Shown piece by piece: positions 5,049 through 44,673 of a stretch of 44,673 bases of DNA. The DNA is from an uncultured Rhodospirillaceae bacterium. Its GTDB lineage: Bacteria > Pseudomonadota > Alphaproteobacteria > UBA8366 > GCA-2717185. The position numbers were made by a program, and so were the translations under genes. The DNA is taken from the NCBI GenBank assembly GCA_913044215.1, contig CAJWOT010000005.1, positions 1 through 44,673 of the forward strand, in the 5' to 3' direction. Numbering within the stretch: the stretch's first letter is position 1; the number at the start of each line of letters is the position of its first letter. The notes under the pieces were generated by a model. That model worked only from the letters and a program-made list of their open reading frames with translations. It was not told where the DNA came from and made no database searches.

Positions 5049-5834
5049 CTAACGCGGTTGAGTTAATCCACGGGACGAGTCGGCGCGCATGAAATCAACA
5101 ATTTCCAGGATATCGGCATTGTCGCCGAAAAGACCCGCGACATCGTCAATGCGCTCCTGCAACGTACCCTCTTCCGCGAACAACATCCGGTATGCGGTTC
5201 GCAAATTGTGGATCTCATCCTTGGCGAAATTGCGCCGCTTCAGGCCAATCACATTGAGGCCGCTAAGCCGAGCACGGTCTCCCATAACAGAACCATACGG
5301 AATGACATCGTTCTCGACACCGGACATCCCGCCCACGATGGCGTGCCGGCCGATCCGTACGAACTGATGGACCGCTGACAGTCCGCCCAGTATCGCGTAG
5401 TCGCCGACCACCACATGTCCGGCAAGCGTCGCGTTATTGGCCATGACGATATGGTCACCCATCAGGCAATCATGCGCCACATGCGAGCCGACCATGAACA
5501 AACAATCGTCACCAACCCGTGTGATCATGCCACCTTCGGACGTACCCGGGTTCATGGTCACATGCTCCCGAATGCGGTTACGCTCGCCGATAATGAGTTC
5601 CGAGTGTTCACCCGAATACTTCAGGTCTTGCGGCGGCAAACCGATCGATGCGAAAGGGTAGATCTCCGTCTCTGCGCCGATCCGAGTCAACCCGCCCACG
5701 ACGACGTGAGAATGCAAGCGAACGCTATCGCCAAGCGTTACCCCTGCTTCCACGACGCAATACGGTCCGATGACGACCCCATCGCCGACCTTGGCTTTGG
5801 AATCGACGATCGCAGTCGGATGAATATCGGTCAT
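5049..5834 (-). CDS. lpxA: Acyl-ACP--UDP-N-acetylglucosamine O-acyltransferase (LpxA)
   Basis: Transfers a 3-hydroxyacyl chain from ACP to the 3-OH of UDP-GlcNAc, the first step of lipid A synthesis, in the cytoplasm. The 261-aa protein is a left-handed parallel beta-helix with repeated hexapeptides over about residues 1-190, followed by a helical C-terminal domain. The catalytic His is His121 in GSHVAHDC, corresponding to His125 of the E. coli enzyme. The ATG directly abuts the fabZ stop with no gap, so coupling with fabZ is likely. Acyl chain length cannot be safely read from the sequence. Confidence 0.97.
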   Translation of the reverse strand: MTDIHPTAIVDSKAKVGDGVVIGPYCVVEAGVTLGDSVRLHSHVVVGGLTRIGAETEIYPFASIGLPPQDLKYSGEHSELIIGERNRIREHVTMNPGTSEGGMITRVGDDCLFMVGSHVAHDCLMGDHIVMANNATLAGHVVVGDYAILGGLSAVHQFVRIGRHAIVGGMSGVENDVIPYGSVMGDRARLSGLNVIGLKRRNFAKDEIHNLRTAYRMLFAEEGTLQERIDDVAGLFGDNADILEIVDFMRADSSRGLTQPR

Positions 5835-6296
5835 TCACTCATCCATGATCATGGCGGCGAAGGTCGCTTCGGCGCACAGCACGTCATTCACTTTCGCTTC
5901 GCCGGTAAATCGCCAAACATTGCCGCGCATTCGATCCTTAGTCACATGCACATGCAGAACATCACCAGGGACGACTGGCTTGCGAAAGCGCGCTTTGTCG
6001 ACGGACATGAAGTACACCAACTTGCCTTCCGCCTCTGGACCAAGCGTATGGACCACCAACACCGCCGCTGTCTGCGCCATCGCTTCGATGATCAAAACAC
6101 CTGGCATCACCGGCTTCGAAGGGAAATGCCCTTGGAAATGCGGCTCGGCTATAGAAACGTTCTTTATTCCGACCGCGCTCTCATTGTCGACGACATCCGC
6201 GACCCGGTCGATCATAAGAAAGGGATATCGATGCGGTATCATCCGCATTATCGCGTTGATATCGATATCCCCTGCCCTCTCCGCGTGGTCATCCAT
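5835..6296 (-). CDS. fabZ: 3-hydroxyacyl-ACP dehydratase (FabZ)
   Basis: Dehydrates 3-hydroxyacyl-ACP to trans-2-enoyl-ACP in type II fatty acid synthesis, and competes with LpxA and LpxD for the 3-hydroxyacyl-ACP pool. The 153-aa protein is a single hot-dog fold. The active-site pair is His57 ([15 protein letters not shown]) and Glu71 (IIEAMAQ). It sits between lpxD (2 nt upstream) and lpxA (0 nt downstream), the usual arrangement in proteobacteria. The 10-residue N-terminal lead before the fold is slightly longer than in E. coli. Confidence 0.97.
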
Positions 6297-6298
6297 TC

Positions 6299-7321
6299 CT
6301 ACGCGCCCTTTTTCTTGGTTAGTTTTTCGATCGCCGCTATCTGCCGAAAGAACTGACGTGCCGGAACCGCCGGCGATCCCAGCATCCGTGCACCGGGCTC
6401 AACGTCCCGCATGATACCGGATTGGGCACCTATCTGCGCGCCCGTGCCGATACGAAGATGCCCGGCGACACCACTTTGCGCGGCCATGACAGCGAAGTCT
6501 TCAAGAACTGTACTCCCGGCAACCCCCGACTGCGCGATGATAATGCACCCCTTGCCGATCCGCACGTTGTGCCCGATCTGCACCAGATTATCAATCATCG
6601 TCCCGTCGCCAATAACTGTATCCGGGCCAGCCCCTCGGTCTATCGTCGAATTGGCGCCGATTTCGACATCGTTGCCAATGATCACCCGCCCCAATTGCGG
6701 CACCTTGACATGACCGCCGGTATCGATCGCGAAGCCAAACCCGCGCTGCCCAATCCGCACACCAGGATGCAACAAAGTGCGCACGCCGATATCGCAGTGG
6801 CTGACAGACGCGTTGGCGCCTATCACGGTGTCATCGCCGATCGAAACCGCATCACCGACAACCGCATTCGCTCCAATATGACAACGCGCACCCACCACCG
6901 CGTTCTCACCGATAACGGCACCGGCATCGACCCGACTACCCGCGCCGAGCGCCGCGGTTTCCGCCACAACAGCAGTTGGTGAAATTCCCGGTTCTGGCAC
7001 AGGTGTCGGATAGAACAGCTGAGCCGCCCGCGCGAACGCCTTATACGGTTCGTTGCTCACCAGCAGAGCCATTCCCTCGGGCGCCTTATCGACAAACTTG
7101 TCGGCCACAACGCACGCTGCAGCCGCACTCGCCTGGAATGCCGCCACATATTTCTGGTTATCGAGAAAACTCAAGGTGCCGGCATCGGCAACGTCCAGTG
7201 GTCCAACATCGATAAGTTGGAGTTCAGGGTCGCTGCTCTCGCCCAACTCTGCGCCGATTTCGCTCGCGATTTCCTTGAGCCGGAAGGGGCCTGCTCGAGT
7301 AAAAAAACGCGGGTCCGCCAT
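6299..7321 (-). CDS. lpxD: UDP-3-O-(3-hydroxyacyl)glucosamine N-acyltransferase (LpxD)
   Basis: Adds the second 3-hydroxyacyl chain, on the amine of UDP-3-O-acylglucosamine, in lipid A synthesis. The 340-aa protein has the LpxD-specific N-terminal uridine-binding domain (about residues 1-105), then a hexapeptide-repeat beta-helix, then a short C-terminal helix ending in a basic KKK tail. The catalytic His is His251 in NLVQIGHN. It lies 3 nt after skp and 2 nt before fabZ, within the conserved bamA-skp-lpxD-fabZ-lpxA series. Confidence 0.97.
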
Positions 7322-17450: not shown

Positions 17451-17562
17451 GGTCGTATCCTTTACCGGTTATTCCGCCGCGGGCGAAAGCCGGTTACCCG
17501 GCACCGGAGCGGCCACTGCCATGATCGACAGCAGGCGCAAACCCGCGTGAGAGATGGGCTGC

Positions 17563-17632: not shown

Positions 17633-20600
17633 CTAAAGGTCCTGGACGTCGATGACCCCGGGAATGGCCTTCACCGCTGAGCGGACCGCGACCGAGATCG
17701 CATAGCCCTGCGGCAGGTCCATTTCGATTTCCCGGTCGCCGGCCTCGAGCGTGAGCCGCACCTTGCCCGGCCCCTGCTCGCCATGCTCCCGGAAAACCGT
17801 CGCAAGGCTGCTGAGCGGTGCTTCGTCACGCACGAACACGCGCAATCCCGCCGCGGCCTTCACCGCCGCTTCGTCCAGCGGCTGAATATCCTGCGCGGTC
17901 AAGCGGAACCCGTCGTTCCAGCGCTGCACATCGACCACGGCGATTAACGGCGCGCCGGATTCCAGCAGATCCCGGCTGACCGCCAGCACCTCCGAGAACA
18001 CGGTGACTTCATAGGAACCGGTCGCGTCGGACATCTGAACGAACGCCATCTTGGCGCCGCGGGACGAGGTCGTGAACCGACGAGCCGAAACGATCCCAGC
18101 CAGCTTAATGCGTCCTTCGCTCATGCGGCCCGACGTAACCGAAGCCCACTCAACGACGCCCAGCTTGTCGCAGGTCTTTTTGTAGGACGCCAGCGGATGC
18201 GACGACAGATAGAAGCCGACCGCTTCGAACTCCTGCTGCAGCCGCTCCTGCACCGCCCAATCGTCCATTTCCGGCAACGGCGGTATGACGGCCGCCGTAT
18301 CTTCAACGCCGAACAGATTCACCTGGTTGCTTTCGCGATCGTTTTGCGCGGCGCTAGCATGGCGCACGAGGGTTTCCACCGCTTCGAATACCTGCCGACG
18401 GTTGGGATTAAGGTTGTCAAATGCGCCGGCACGGCCAAGATTTTCGATCTGCCGCTTGTTCATCACCCCGGTATCGAGCCGCCCGGCAAAGTCGAATAGA
18501 GATTCGAAGGGGCCGTTCTCCTTGCGCTCCTGCACGACCGTTTCCATCGCCGCCGCACCGACGTTCTTCAAAGCAGCAAGGGCGTAACGGACGGCGCTCT
18601 CGCTGTCGCTCACCCGTTCCACCGCAAAGTCCACTTCCGACCGGTTTATATCCGGTGGCAACAGAGCGATGCCCATTCGGTCGAGTTCGGCACGGAACAA
18701 GCCGAGTTTATCGGTATTGCCCATATCCTCGCTCATCGACGCGGCGAGGAATTCCACGGGATAGTTGGCTTTCAGATAGGCCGTCTGATAGGCGACCAGC
18801 GCGTAGGCGGCAGCGTGCGACTTGTTGAATCCGTAGCCAGCGAATTTGGCGACCTGATCGAATACCCGTCCGGCGAGCCCCTCCTCGACATCGTTGGCAA
18901 CGGCTCCATCGACAAAGTTGGCCCGCTGCGCGTCCATTTCCGCCTGGATCTTTTTGCCCATGGCGCGGCGCAGCAGATCGGCGCCACCGAGGCTGAAACC
19001 CGACAGGGTCTGCGCGATCTGCATCACCTGTTCCTGGTAGATCATGATGCCGTAGGTTTCCTTCAGGATCCCTTCCAGCGACGGATGCAGATAATCCGGC
19101 TCTTCCTCACCATGCTTGCGCCTGATGTAGCTCGGGATATTGTCCATCGGACCCGGCCGGTACAGCGCCACGACGGCGATGATGTCTTCGAAACGGTCGG
19201 GTTTCAGCTTCTTCAGCACGTCCCGCAGGCCCGAACTTTCCAGCTGAAACACACCGGTCGAATCCGCCTGGCACAACATCTCGAAGGTCTTCTTGTCGTC
19301 GAGCGGCAATTGATCGAGCGCGATGTCGACGCCCCGATCCTTCAGGCGCCTGACAGTACTGGACAGTACGGTCAGCGTCTTCAGGCCCAGAAAGTCGAAT
19401 TTCACCAAGCCCGCCTGTTCGACATATTTCATGTTGAACTGGGTGACAGGCATGGTCGAACGCGAGTCACGATAGAGCGGCACCAGCTCCTGCAACGGCC
19501 GGTCGCCGATCACGACGCCCGCGGCATGGGTCGACGCGTGGCGGTAAAGGCCCTCTAGCTTCAACGACATGCCGACAAGCCTGTCGACCGATGGGTCTTC
19601 CTTGCGCATCTCCTGCAACATCGGCTCGTCGTCCAGCGCCTTTTTCAGGCTGACGGGATTGGCCGGATTGTACGGCACCAGTTTGCTGATCCTGTCGACC
19701 TGGCCGTACGGCATTTCCAGAACCCGGCCGACATCGCGCAGGACGGCGCGCGCTTCCAGCTTTCCGAATGTGATGATCTGGGCAACCCGGTCATAGCCAT
19801 ATTCGTTCTGCACATAGCGGATCACATCATCCCGCCGGTCCTTACAGAAATCGATGTCGAAGTCCGGCATCGACACGCGTTCGGGGTTGAGAAAACGCTC
19901 GAACAGGAGATCGAAGCGCAGCGGGTCGAGATCGGTAATCGTCAGCGCCCAGGCGACGACCGAGCCGGCGCCGGAACCGCGCCCCGGCCCAACCGGAATG
20001 TCCTCATTCTTGGCCCATTGAATGAAGTCGGCGACGATCAGGAAATACCCTGGGAAACCCATTTGCGCGATGACATCGAGCTCATATTGCAGCCGCTCGC
20101 GGTAGGGCTTCGCGATCGCCTCCCGCTCCTCCGCGCTCTGACCTTCCTCGTAGACCTGCCGCTGCAGCCGTTCCTCCAGCCCTTCGGCCGACATCTCTCG
20201 CAGGACTTCTTCCTCGCCCCTGCCCTGCAATTTCGGATAAGGCGGCAGAATCGGCGCCCGCGTATCCGGCATATAGGCGCAACGCTGCGCCACGACGAGC
20301 GTGTTGTCGATCGCTTCCGGCAAATCAGCGAACAACTCGCGCATTTCTTCCGGCGATTTGAAATAATGTTCCGGCGTCACCCGGCGGCGGTCCGTCCTGG
20401 ACACCGTGGCACCCGCCGCAATGCACATCAGCGCATCGTGCGCTTCGTACATGCTGCGGTCAGCAAAAAACACCTCGTTGGTCGCGACCAGAGGCAGGTT
20501 GTGGCTATAGGCCATCTCGATCAATGCCGGTTCGATCTGCTCTTCGTCAGGCTGACCATGGCGCATCAGTTCGACATAGAGCCGGCCATCGAACATAGAT

Positions 20601-43235: not shown

Positions 43236-43275
43236 AATTAAAATAGCGAAGGCCGCGCGATTCGCTCGCGCGGCC
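43236..43275 (-). terminator. Intrinsic terminator of the oxygenase-like gene
   Basis: A perfect 10-bp stem, GGCCGCGCGA with TCGCGCGGCC (43251-43260 and 43266-43275), has a 5-nt loop and lies 30 nt after the stop at 43305. On the minus strand it is followed by a T-rich but interrupted tail (TTCGCTATTTTAATTT). It insulates this gene from the nuo operon. Confidence 0.75.
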
Positions 43276-43304
43276 CTCTTAAACGTTGTCTGACGCCTGT
43301 CTTA

Positions 43305-44573
43305 CTAGAAGAAGATATAGGAACGGACGACGATGTTTTTACGGCATGGCGCATCGAGCGGGACCGTCGGGTCGATGCAGGCGGTGTGGAAGGACCAGCG
43401 CGATACCGAACCGTCGGTCACCGAATCGTAGCATTTCAGCATCGAGACTTCCGTCGGCGTCTGCCGCGGGAACCAGTACCACTCATGGTCCTTGCGATAG
43501 GTGAAGCGCGTGGTCTCACCGACCCGGTCGTCGTAAATGCGGTAGTTGTTGATATAGGGCTGATCCGCGAAGGACGGCCAGGCACACAGCACGAACGGGA
43601 ACTGCTCGACGGTCTCCATCGGCTTCGCGAGGTTGATCGACATGAAACGCCGCGACATTTTCGCGTCGGCCTCGGCTTCCGTGTAGTTCTGTGTCCGGCC
43701 GAAGTTACGGAGGTTCTTGGTCAGCAACTCCCGGCAACGCACGCGGCCGCTGTTGTCGTTCAGATCATTATGCACGAGGTTGGCGTAGCGGGCGTTCACA
43801 CCGGGATTCTTTGCGTCCTGATCCTCAGTCCGATCGCCCTGATAGTCCTTGTCGAAGACATCGTGGTTATAGACGAGCGCGTCCGTCGCTCCGGGAAAGA
43901 AATCCAGAAGGAGTTTTTCGATCTCCGGATAGAACACACGTTCCACTTCTTTGGAATCGTAGAAATTTTCACATTTGGACTCGAGGTGTGCCAGGGAGAC
44001 ACCAAGCTTGTCCATGCATTCGGGACTGCTTGGCGACAAACCGGGATGATATTCCTCAATCCGCCGCGCATCGCGCATCACCTGCGGGAAGTAAAGATTG
44101 CGCTTCCGCGTATCTTCTTCCTCCTTGCGCAAGATATTCGCGTCCTCCGCGCGTGCCGGATCATTCCAGACGGCGTTGGAGGGCACGACCGAATAAGTCG
44201 GCCGTTCGTAGACCGTATAAGGCAACGGCAAGGCCAATCCGCCTTCCGGCGCCTCGATACCCTGCGCGCGAATATACTCGACGCATTCGTCATAGCTTCG
44301 GAAGCCTAGACCCCACTTCGTCTCAATCGGTCCCGGCGGTGCGTTTTCAATCATGTCGAGGACCCGCTGGCCTTCGCCCTCGGCGATCATGGCAAACGCG
44401 TCGTCCAGGGCGACCGCGGTCCCGGCATCCCCATCCTTATCGAAGGACATATAGGAAAGCCCGCCATGGGCGGCGACGGGCGGCGGCTGCCCCTCCGTCA
44501 GTTGGAGTGTCGGCACATAGGCCGAGGACGCATTCTCCGCCTCCTGATTCTCGATGACCTTGCCGTCGTCCAT
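43305..44573 (-). CDS. CmcJ/NvfI family oxygenase-like protein (predicted Fe(II)/2-oxoglutarate type)
   Basis: The 422-aa product has a C-terminal part (about residues 225-422) that fits the CmcJ/NvfI group, named after a cephamycin methoxylation protein and a fungal meroterpenoid oxygenase. Visible features are the His268-X-Asp270 pair (LVHNDL), RRFMSINLAKPM at 308-319 and the PFVLCAW segment. GETTRF, HEWYWFPRQTPTE and LKCYDS lie in the 350-385 region, followed by His396 (FHTA) and Arg411/Arg417 near the end. His-X-Asp...His would bind iron and a C-terminal Arg the 2-oxoglutarate. The first 110 residues are acidic and low in hydrophobic content, with no signal peptide; residues 80-225 contain aromatic stretches I cannot assign. 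A GGAGG site lies 7 nt before the ATG, and a terminator follows. Substrate unknown; no biosynthetic genes are adjacent inside the window. Confidence 0.75.
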   Translation of the reverse strand: MDDGKVIENQEAENASSAYVPTLQLTEGQPPPVAAHGGLSYMSFDKDGDAGTAVALDDAFAMIAEGEGQRVLDMIENAPPGPIETKWGLGFRSYDECVEYIRAQGIEAPEGGLALPLPYTVYERPTYSVVPSNAVWNDPARAEDANILRKEEEDTRKRNLYFPQVMRDARRIEEYHPGLSPSSPECMDKLGVSLAHLESKCENFYDSKEVERVFYPEIEKLLLDFFPGATDALVYNHDVFDKDYQGDRTEDQDAKNPGVNARYANLVHNDLNDNSGRVRCRELLTKNLRNFGRTQNYTEAEADAKMSRRFMSINLAKPMETVEQFPFVLCAWPSFADQPYINNYRIYDDRVGETTRFTYRKDHEWYWFPRQTPTEVSMLKCYDSVTDGSVSRWSFHTACIDPTVPLDAPCRKNIVVRSYIFF

Positions 44574-44673
44574 GGAACATCCTCCGAATTACAGTCGCAA
44601 TATCGTGGCATAGTGAACCCTGTATTTCCAGGTCCAGAGGCGTTCGCGCATACCTGTCGCCCCAGCGCCATAC

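Follow-up and report, generated by a model that had tools for sequence, protein, structure and literature searches.

A distinct long form of the CmcJ/NvfI oxygenase family with a conserved N-terminal segment and no constant gene partner

A long form within the CmcJ/NvfI family

The last gene of the window (the whole stretch of 44,673 nucleotides analysed here, the end of which is also the end of the contig) encodes a protein of 422 residues that belongs to a distinct subfamily of the CmcJ/NvfI family, called here the long form. Judged from its sequence and its structural model, this protein looks like an Fe(II)/2-oxoglutarate oxygenase by both its fold and its ligands. The explanation that we consider probable as a whole is that of a self-contained enzyme working alone, with a role in breakdown or detoxification being weakly favoured.

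The predicted open reading frame (ORF) lies at 43305..44573, as originally proposed, and is read on the minus strand (an addition to the original prediction), from an ATG at 44573 to a TAG at 43305-43307. Its assignment as a long-form family member is based on the ORF itself, on the profile match, on the model and on the fold match with NvfI. No Pfam family was found for the protein, even at an E-value of 10. It matches NCBIfam NF041278 (CmcJ_NvfI_EfuI) with 135 bits (E = 3.5e-39, curated cut-off 80) between protein residues 183 and 422 and profile positions 48 and 263; together with 80 homologous loci at 75-99% identity, this places the ORF beyond chance. The solved proteins found by sequence search are NvfI and CTB9. 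Membership of the CmcJ/NvfI type, as initially read from the sequence, is therefore borne out by profile, fold and conservation. We found no publication on the long form in a literature search with poor coverage of subscription journals.

The NF041278 members of 59 genomes (own genome included) split into two classes: full-profile canonical copies, which score 184-333 bits from profile position 1-5, and eight intact long forms, which score 132-140 bits from position 48. The same genomes also hold three truncated or broken long forms (61-95 bits), three other copies that begin at position 21-31 (208-290 bits), two pieces of 111 residues (146 and 156 bits) and one place that covers positions 2-63 only (35 bits). 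The canonical bacterial members (23 ORFs, 240-359 residues) match the same profile above its cut-off as the long form does. The window's genome encodes five family members, of which only the 422-residue protein is long, the other four being canonical paralogues.

The gene had been described as carrying its own ribosome site and terminator, and candidates for both can be read. A Shine-Dalgarno-like GGAGGA (44580..44585, minus strand) stands 6 nt upstream of the ATG, and a terminator-like hairpin of 13 pairs followed by a T-rich tail (GCTATTTTAA; 43248..43278, minus strand) lies just 3' of the stop codon, the latter coming from a weak scan (four terminator-like sites in the region, compared with a mean of 1.7 in shuffles). 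A scan of the region found no sigma-70-like promoter for the gene. Five nuo genes of the window, taken for comparison, have GC3 values of 0.734-0.816; at 0.749 the gene lies among them, and so its composition gives no sign of a foreign origin.

Predicted fold, active site and N-terminal segment

An AlphaFold2 model of the 422-residue protein has a mean pLDDT of 90.8 and a pTM of 0.87. It was built on an alignment, A1, of 80 long-form rows (the window, 78 of the 80 returned loci, L035 and L110 being excluded, and the second copy of L042) and five distant paralogues. The first ten Foldseek matches of the model are all NvfI or CTB9 (best E-value 9.7e-18, for NvfI, with a TM of 0.80 by target). 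With VIA-align, the model superposes on NvfI (7emz_A) with a Z of 27.4 over 264 residues at 2.3 Å and on CTB9 with a Z of 25.9; the next entry, PtlH, reaches only 9.8. The double-stranded beta-helix on which the original prediction had staked its assignment is thus present in the model, and by similarity to NvfI and CTB9 it is assigned to the canonical catalytic part, residues 106-422 (43308..44258, minus strand).

NvfI, the asnovolin A endoperoxidase (PDB entries 7DE2, 7EMZ and 7ENB), shares this catalytic fold over long-form residues 106-422 with 20% identity over the fold alignment, and the long form has an extra 105 N-terminal residues. CTB9 belongs to the cercosporin pathway of fungi. This 2-oxoglutarate dioxygenase of Cercospora (PDB entries 7EUS, 7EUT and 7EUU, with a pre-cercosporin complex named in an entry title) has the same fold and an aligned HxD motif at 18% identity; its alignment covers the model from residue 109 onward and so offers no counterpart of segment 17-105.

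The proposed iron ligands, His268 (43770..43772), Asp270 (43764..43766) and His396 (43386..43388, all on the minus strand), are found in 80 of the 80 long-form rows. His268 and Asp270 align with the His and the Asp of the CTB9 HxD motif, and His396 pairs with residue 270 of the NvfI chain. The W199F variant of NvfI places Trp199 at chain position 219, which gives an offset of 20, and His396 thus corresponds to NvfI position 250. The available text of PMC8292354 names position 250 as an iron ligand and prints the triad as 'His135-His137-Asp250'; as the aligned residue 250 is a histidine, we read the printed order as His-Asp-His. The ligand assignment of the original prediction is accordingly supported by conservation and by alignment with the ligands of solved relatives. 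An apparent loss of the distal His in five Binatota-type paralogues, with an Arg in that column, proved to be a misalignment, these paralogues carrying AHTSF.

The distal His and C-terminal Arg pattern of NvfI is likewise aligned with the long form. Two arginines could bind 2-oxoglutarate, Arg411 (43341..43343, minus strand) as the candidate and Arg417 (43323-43325, minus strand) as the alternative; both are invariant in A1 (85 of 85 rows, including 80 of 80 long-form rows). The motifs that had first drawn attention to the family are all present in the translation: GETTRF at 352-357, HEWYWFP at 363-369 and LKCYDS at 379-384. Glu208 of NvfI (chain numbering minus 20) aligns with Glu353 of the long form, and the gating Trp199 aligns with Tyr344 in a loop where the alignment is uncertain; the Phe127 region lies outside it. 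Trp199 and Phe127 are described as gating residues important for endoperoxidation in the available part of PMC8292354.

The N-terminal part of the protein had been described as long, unassigned and disordered at an acidic start. The extra segment does exist, and it ends near residue 105 instead of near 225: since the NvfI chain aligns with model residues 106-422, only residues 1-105 fall outside the canonical family. Positions 1-47 of NF041278 have no match in the sequence, yet the NvfI fold alignment covers that part from model residue 106 onward. The long form shows that, when only a sequence profile is used, the domain boundary is drawn in the wrong place. The disordered start also shrinks, to an acidic tail of low confidence at residues 1-16 (44526..44573, minus strand; pLDDT below 50, no column at 97% identity), the rest being conserved and confidently modelled, with blocks from residue 21 onward having mean pLDDT values of 85-97.

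Residues 17-105 (44259..44525, minus strand) form a conserved N-terminal extension that is outside the NvfI and CTB9 alignments (which start at 106 and 109, respectively) and has profile matches in relatives. Columns at 97% identity or more number 27 of 99 in residues 17-115, compared with 145 of 236 in residues 187-422 (85 rows); the segment is therefore conserved, although less so than the catalytic part. Modelled alone, residues 17-110 reach a pLDDT of 82 and a pTM of only 0.45, poorer than inside the full protein, which suggests an appendage packing on the core rather than a free domain. Searched alone, these residues matched no PDB structure at E <= 0.001, nor did any of 56 chains reach a Z of 2 with VIA, and the N-terminal profile A2 found nothing under an E-value of 0.065 among PDB sequences. 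We have therefore discarded an independent N-terminal domain, on the grounds of the poor lone model and the lack of a structural match, from which a novel fold does not follow. As far as the model and the sequence indicate, the most likely arrangement is that segment 17-105 lies against the catalytic core, where it would mould or cover the substrate site.

Genomic place and distribution

The gene had been described as standing alone beside the nuo operon, and no neighbour is indeed widely common to its relatives in the best 80 of 245 loci. In the 99% relative (G001), tRNA-Val, tRNA-Asp, the oxygenase gene and nuoA follow one another in this order, on a contig that matches the end of the window at 98% over a length of 4.3 kb. 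Read from this relative, the DNA to the right of position 44673, where biosynthetic partners might have been found, holds tRNA-Asp and tRNA-Val and no such partner over the approximately 1.5 kb that is visible. In the congener G003, tRNA-Asp and nuoA are separated by 257 bp without the gene, and the homologue lies on another contig. The empty site indicates that the gene entered or left the tRNA-Asp/nuoA spot together with the signals for its own start and stop. The interval from the gene end to nuoA has no word of at least 8 bp in common with tRNA-Asp and the 110 bp that follow it (L126), which leaves site-specific integration unsupported. The contig of G002 begins 177 bp before nuoA and is hence uninformative on the site. 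Among the loci compared, only those of the window species and of G001 have NuoA, NuoB or NuoD in their flanks. We thus rejected a functional link to complex I, the nuo neighbour being limited to two close genomes and the nuoF of G003 lying on a different contig from its homologue of the gene.

A constant partner was also rejected. The largest neighbour cluster, TauD-like by reading, occurs in seven of 80 loci, and no family exceeds nine of the 137 near ORFs. The Pfam tallies compare these 137 near ORFs with 137 sampled from 155 far ones and consider the first 25 of 120 and 25 of 128 families, respectively; as ORFs were called crudely, by length only, some 'neighbours' are not genes. The families that recur right beside the gene are hydrolases and oxidoreductases: near it we counted Abhydrolase_1 (9/137, including four EHN matches from Binatota-type loci), Amidohydro_2 (4/137), luciferase-like (3/137) and TauD (2/137) ORFs, and in the far control Amidohydro_2 (4/137) and TauD (3/137). 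The called ORF is preceded, at a distance of 44-77 bp, by the end of an amidohydrolase-like gene (Pfam call on L108) in three of the four Betaproteobacteria loci (L108, L111 and L113; not L104). The Binatota-type loci (L088, L093, L098, L106 and L112) have a second CmcJ/NvfI gene in five of five cases and an epoxide-hydrolase-like gene in four of five, with a varying mix of GST, luciferase-like, amidohydrolase and sulfotransferase genes (Pfam, examples) and of TauD-like and FMO-like genes (by reading). L106 is counted here by its place in the tree, and L105, which is labelled Binatota, does not have this cluster. The Binatota-type gene clusters look like an oxidative pathway.

An origin from a phage or another mobile element was considered and rejected. 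There is no match to the long form among 50,697 phage records, no relative on viral contigs and no PHROGs family, and the plasmid matches (15 records) are partial, covering 55-61% of the query in the catalytic part at less than 60% identity. A role in anti-phage defence was dismissed as well, no PADLOC family being found.

A genome_contigs scan matched 324 stretches, of which 245 encode relatives. The best 80 of these 245, which we analysed, are 75-99% identical and matched from residue 1-19 to residue 413-422. By record titles, which may err since most are MAGs, the best 80 comprise 59 Alphaproteobacteria, seven Gammaproteobacteria, four Betaproteobacteria, five Binatota, one Campylobacterota and four classless records (a list that also counts L115). 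Cultured carriers include Reyranella soli NBRC 108950 (L049) and Vineibacter terrae CC-CFT640 (L078). The long-form segment profile is matched in 11 of 43 genomes of the order and 19 of 385 genomes of the class, own genome included in each case, the enzyme part being checked in some of the class matches. Among 398 genomes of the phylum (own included), no long form other than the own one was found at an E-value of 1e-30. In the 59 genomes above, the segment profile matched ten frames of 365-541 residues and three weak places, besides a fragment of 77 residues in G005 and a broken copy in G006; the weak matches of A2 are in G034, G015 and G039:C54 (E-values of 4.5e-4 to 0.085).

Four of the 20 matches in the class sample have open frames of 207-241 residues, and the notion of split genes was set aside since they are mostly explained otherwise: two lie at contig ends (G764), and the G622 copy aligns in one frame over residues 1-422. 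In the one-contig genome G706 (L135, contig C1) the long form stands in two frames, and the copy of G776, from the same genus, is in one frame; the break could be either an assembly error or real. L015 (G006:C14) is a 58% identical copy with an interrupted frame that is apparently decaying. Two long forms stand on the same strand of one MAG, approximately 0.7 kb apart (L042:3762-5099 and 5821-7272), and belong to separate small groups in the tree.

A quick tree, with 34 of its 85 inner branches left open, unites the four Betaproteobacteria in a single clade (99, starred), the place of which beside Acetobacteraceae-labelled rows has a value of 89 (unstarred). Binatota group with Gammaproteobacteria and some Alphaproteobacteria in a starred set of 13 rows (95) that lies within the range of the alphaproteobacterial rows. 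Where two proteins are 75-80% identical, their genes differ at 48% of comparable fourfold sites in the median (84 of the 85 rows), so that the similarity looks old and held by purifying selection. Identity to the window copy is 85% for the long form and 93% for NuoF in G003, 79% and 86% in G005, 81% and 84% in G028, and 84% and 79% in G035. A single clade of the four copies from the window's genus was rejected (p-AU 0.007, 26 rows) in a test that followed sight of an earlier tree, that includes one truncated copy and in which the alternative sister group has only 80/57 support. Transfer and hidden paralogy both fit the history of these copies.

Possible mechanism and role

In the mechanism that we propose, His268, Asp270 and His396 would bind the iron, and an arginine near the C-terminus would bind 2-oxoglutarate. 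By analogy with the family, O2 and 2-oxoglutarate would then yield a ferryl species able to take a hydrogen atom from the substrate, and the product would probably be a hydroxylated, desaturated or otherwise oxidised form of it. The loop Tyr344-Glu353 may correspond, by alignment, to the substrate-gating loop II of NvfI (Trp199-Pro209). Segment 17-105 may wrap or lid the substrate site, as its conservation and its higher model confidence within the full-length protein suggest. The substrate itself would be small and probably environmental.

The lack of a constant partner and the differing genome places suggest that the enzyme probably acts by itself, on a compound within reach of many bacteria. 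Our preference for oxidative breakdown or detoxification over a fixed biosynthetic step is a weak one, and several observations count against the catabolic reading: four of the nine Abhydrolase_1 neighbours may be related epoxide hydrolases of the Binatota type, Amidohydro_2 is equally frequent in the far control, TauD is even slightly commoner there (three versus two), and the Binatota-type loci place the gene among oxidative genes, as a pathway gene would be. The protein might instead be a natural-product tailoring enzyme with its partner genes elsewhere in the genome, for which the chemistry would be unchanged and only the role would differ. The characterised relatives are biosynthetic: NvfI acts in biosynthesis according to the part of PMC6030086 at hand, and CmcJ, the putative cephalosporin 7-alpha-hydroxylase that gave the family its name, is assigned to act with the methyltransferase CmcI in the accessible portion of PMC6097109. 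The second family member in five of five Binatota-type loci points in the same direction, as does L093, which adds a sulfotransferase and a luciferase-like monooxygenase (Pfam) and two FMO-like genes (by reading). A CmcI-type partner is absent from the first 25 of 120 neighbour families of the long form, the neighbour in the window being nuo; nor is a meroterpenoid cluster seen beside this bacterial gene, unlike for NvfI. As the best 80 of 245 loci share no constant partner and the copy in the 99% relative sits between tRNA-Asp and nuoA, we regard a tailoring role as somewhat unlikely.

A lone, highly conserved gene would also be explained if the enzyme modified a macromolecule (protein, lipid or RNA). 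The absence of partners agrees with this, as does a conservation between families that is in the range of NuoF (84% versus 79% for G035 and 81% versus 84% for G028), but within the genus the long form is less conserved than NuoF (85% versus 93% for G003). Moreover, its patchy presence (19 of 385 class genomes, and only its own among 398 phylum genomes) fits an accessory trait, and the characterised relatives act on small molecules in the portions of the sources available, which makes a macromolecular substrate quite unlikely. We find it highly improbable that the fold was kept and the activity lost, leaving a sensor or a scaffold: nothing beyond the absence of a known substrate speaks for it, while the three ligands and both C-terminal arginines are retained in 80 of 80 long-form rows.

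The self-contained oxygenase working alone therefore remains our preferred reading. A more specific version of it, possible though on balance doubtful, is an undescribed clade of the CmcJ/NvfI fold in which a segment of about 90 residues caps the active site, the gene being a one-gene cassette that crosses classes and phyla and acts on one widespread environmental compound. If true, one widespread substrate would explain conservation between families in the NuoF range without a conserved partner. The relatives with known or assigned substrates come from fungal (NvfI) or streptomycete (CmcJ) pathways, in the parts of the sources available. A single gene at 75-99% identity in at least 80 loci, in several classes and a second phylum, is probably useful on its own, which makes the long form attractive for substrate discovery and perhaps as a portable biocatalyst. 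The worth of the finding lies in conservation and spread coming together with the absence of partners.

Finally, two RNA calls elsewhere in the window should be noted. ARAGORN calls a tRNA-Ile at 18756-18835 (plus strand), inside a minus-strand ORF of 1153 residues and unlike Rfam, which gives no tRNA there; this call is probably false. Rfam places an rpsB sRNA (RF01815) at 17453-17551 on the minus strand, its score of 45.2 bits exceeding the gathering score of 40.
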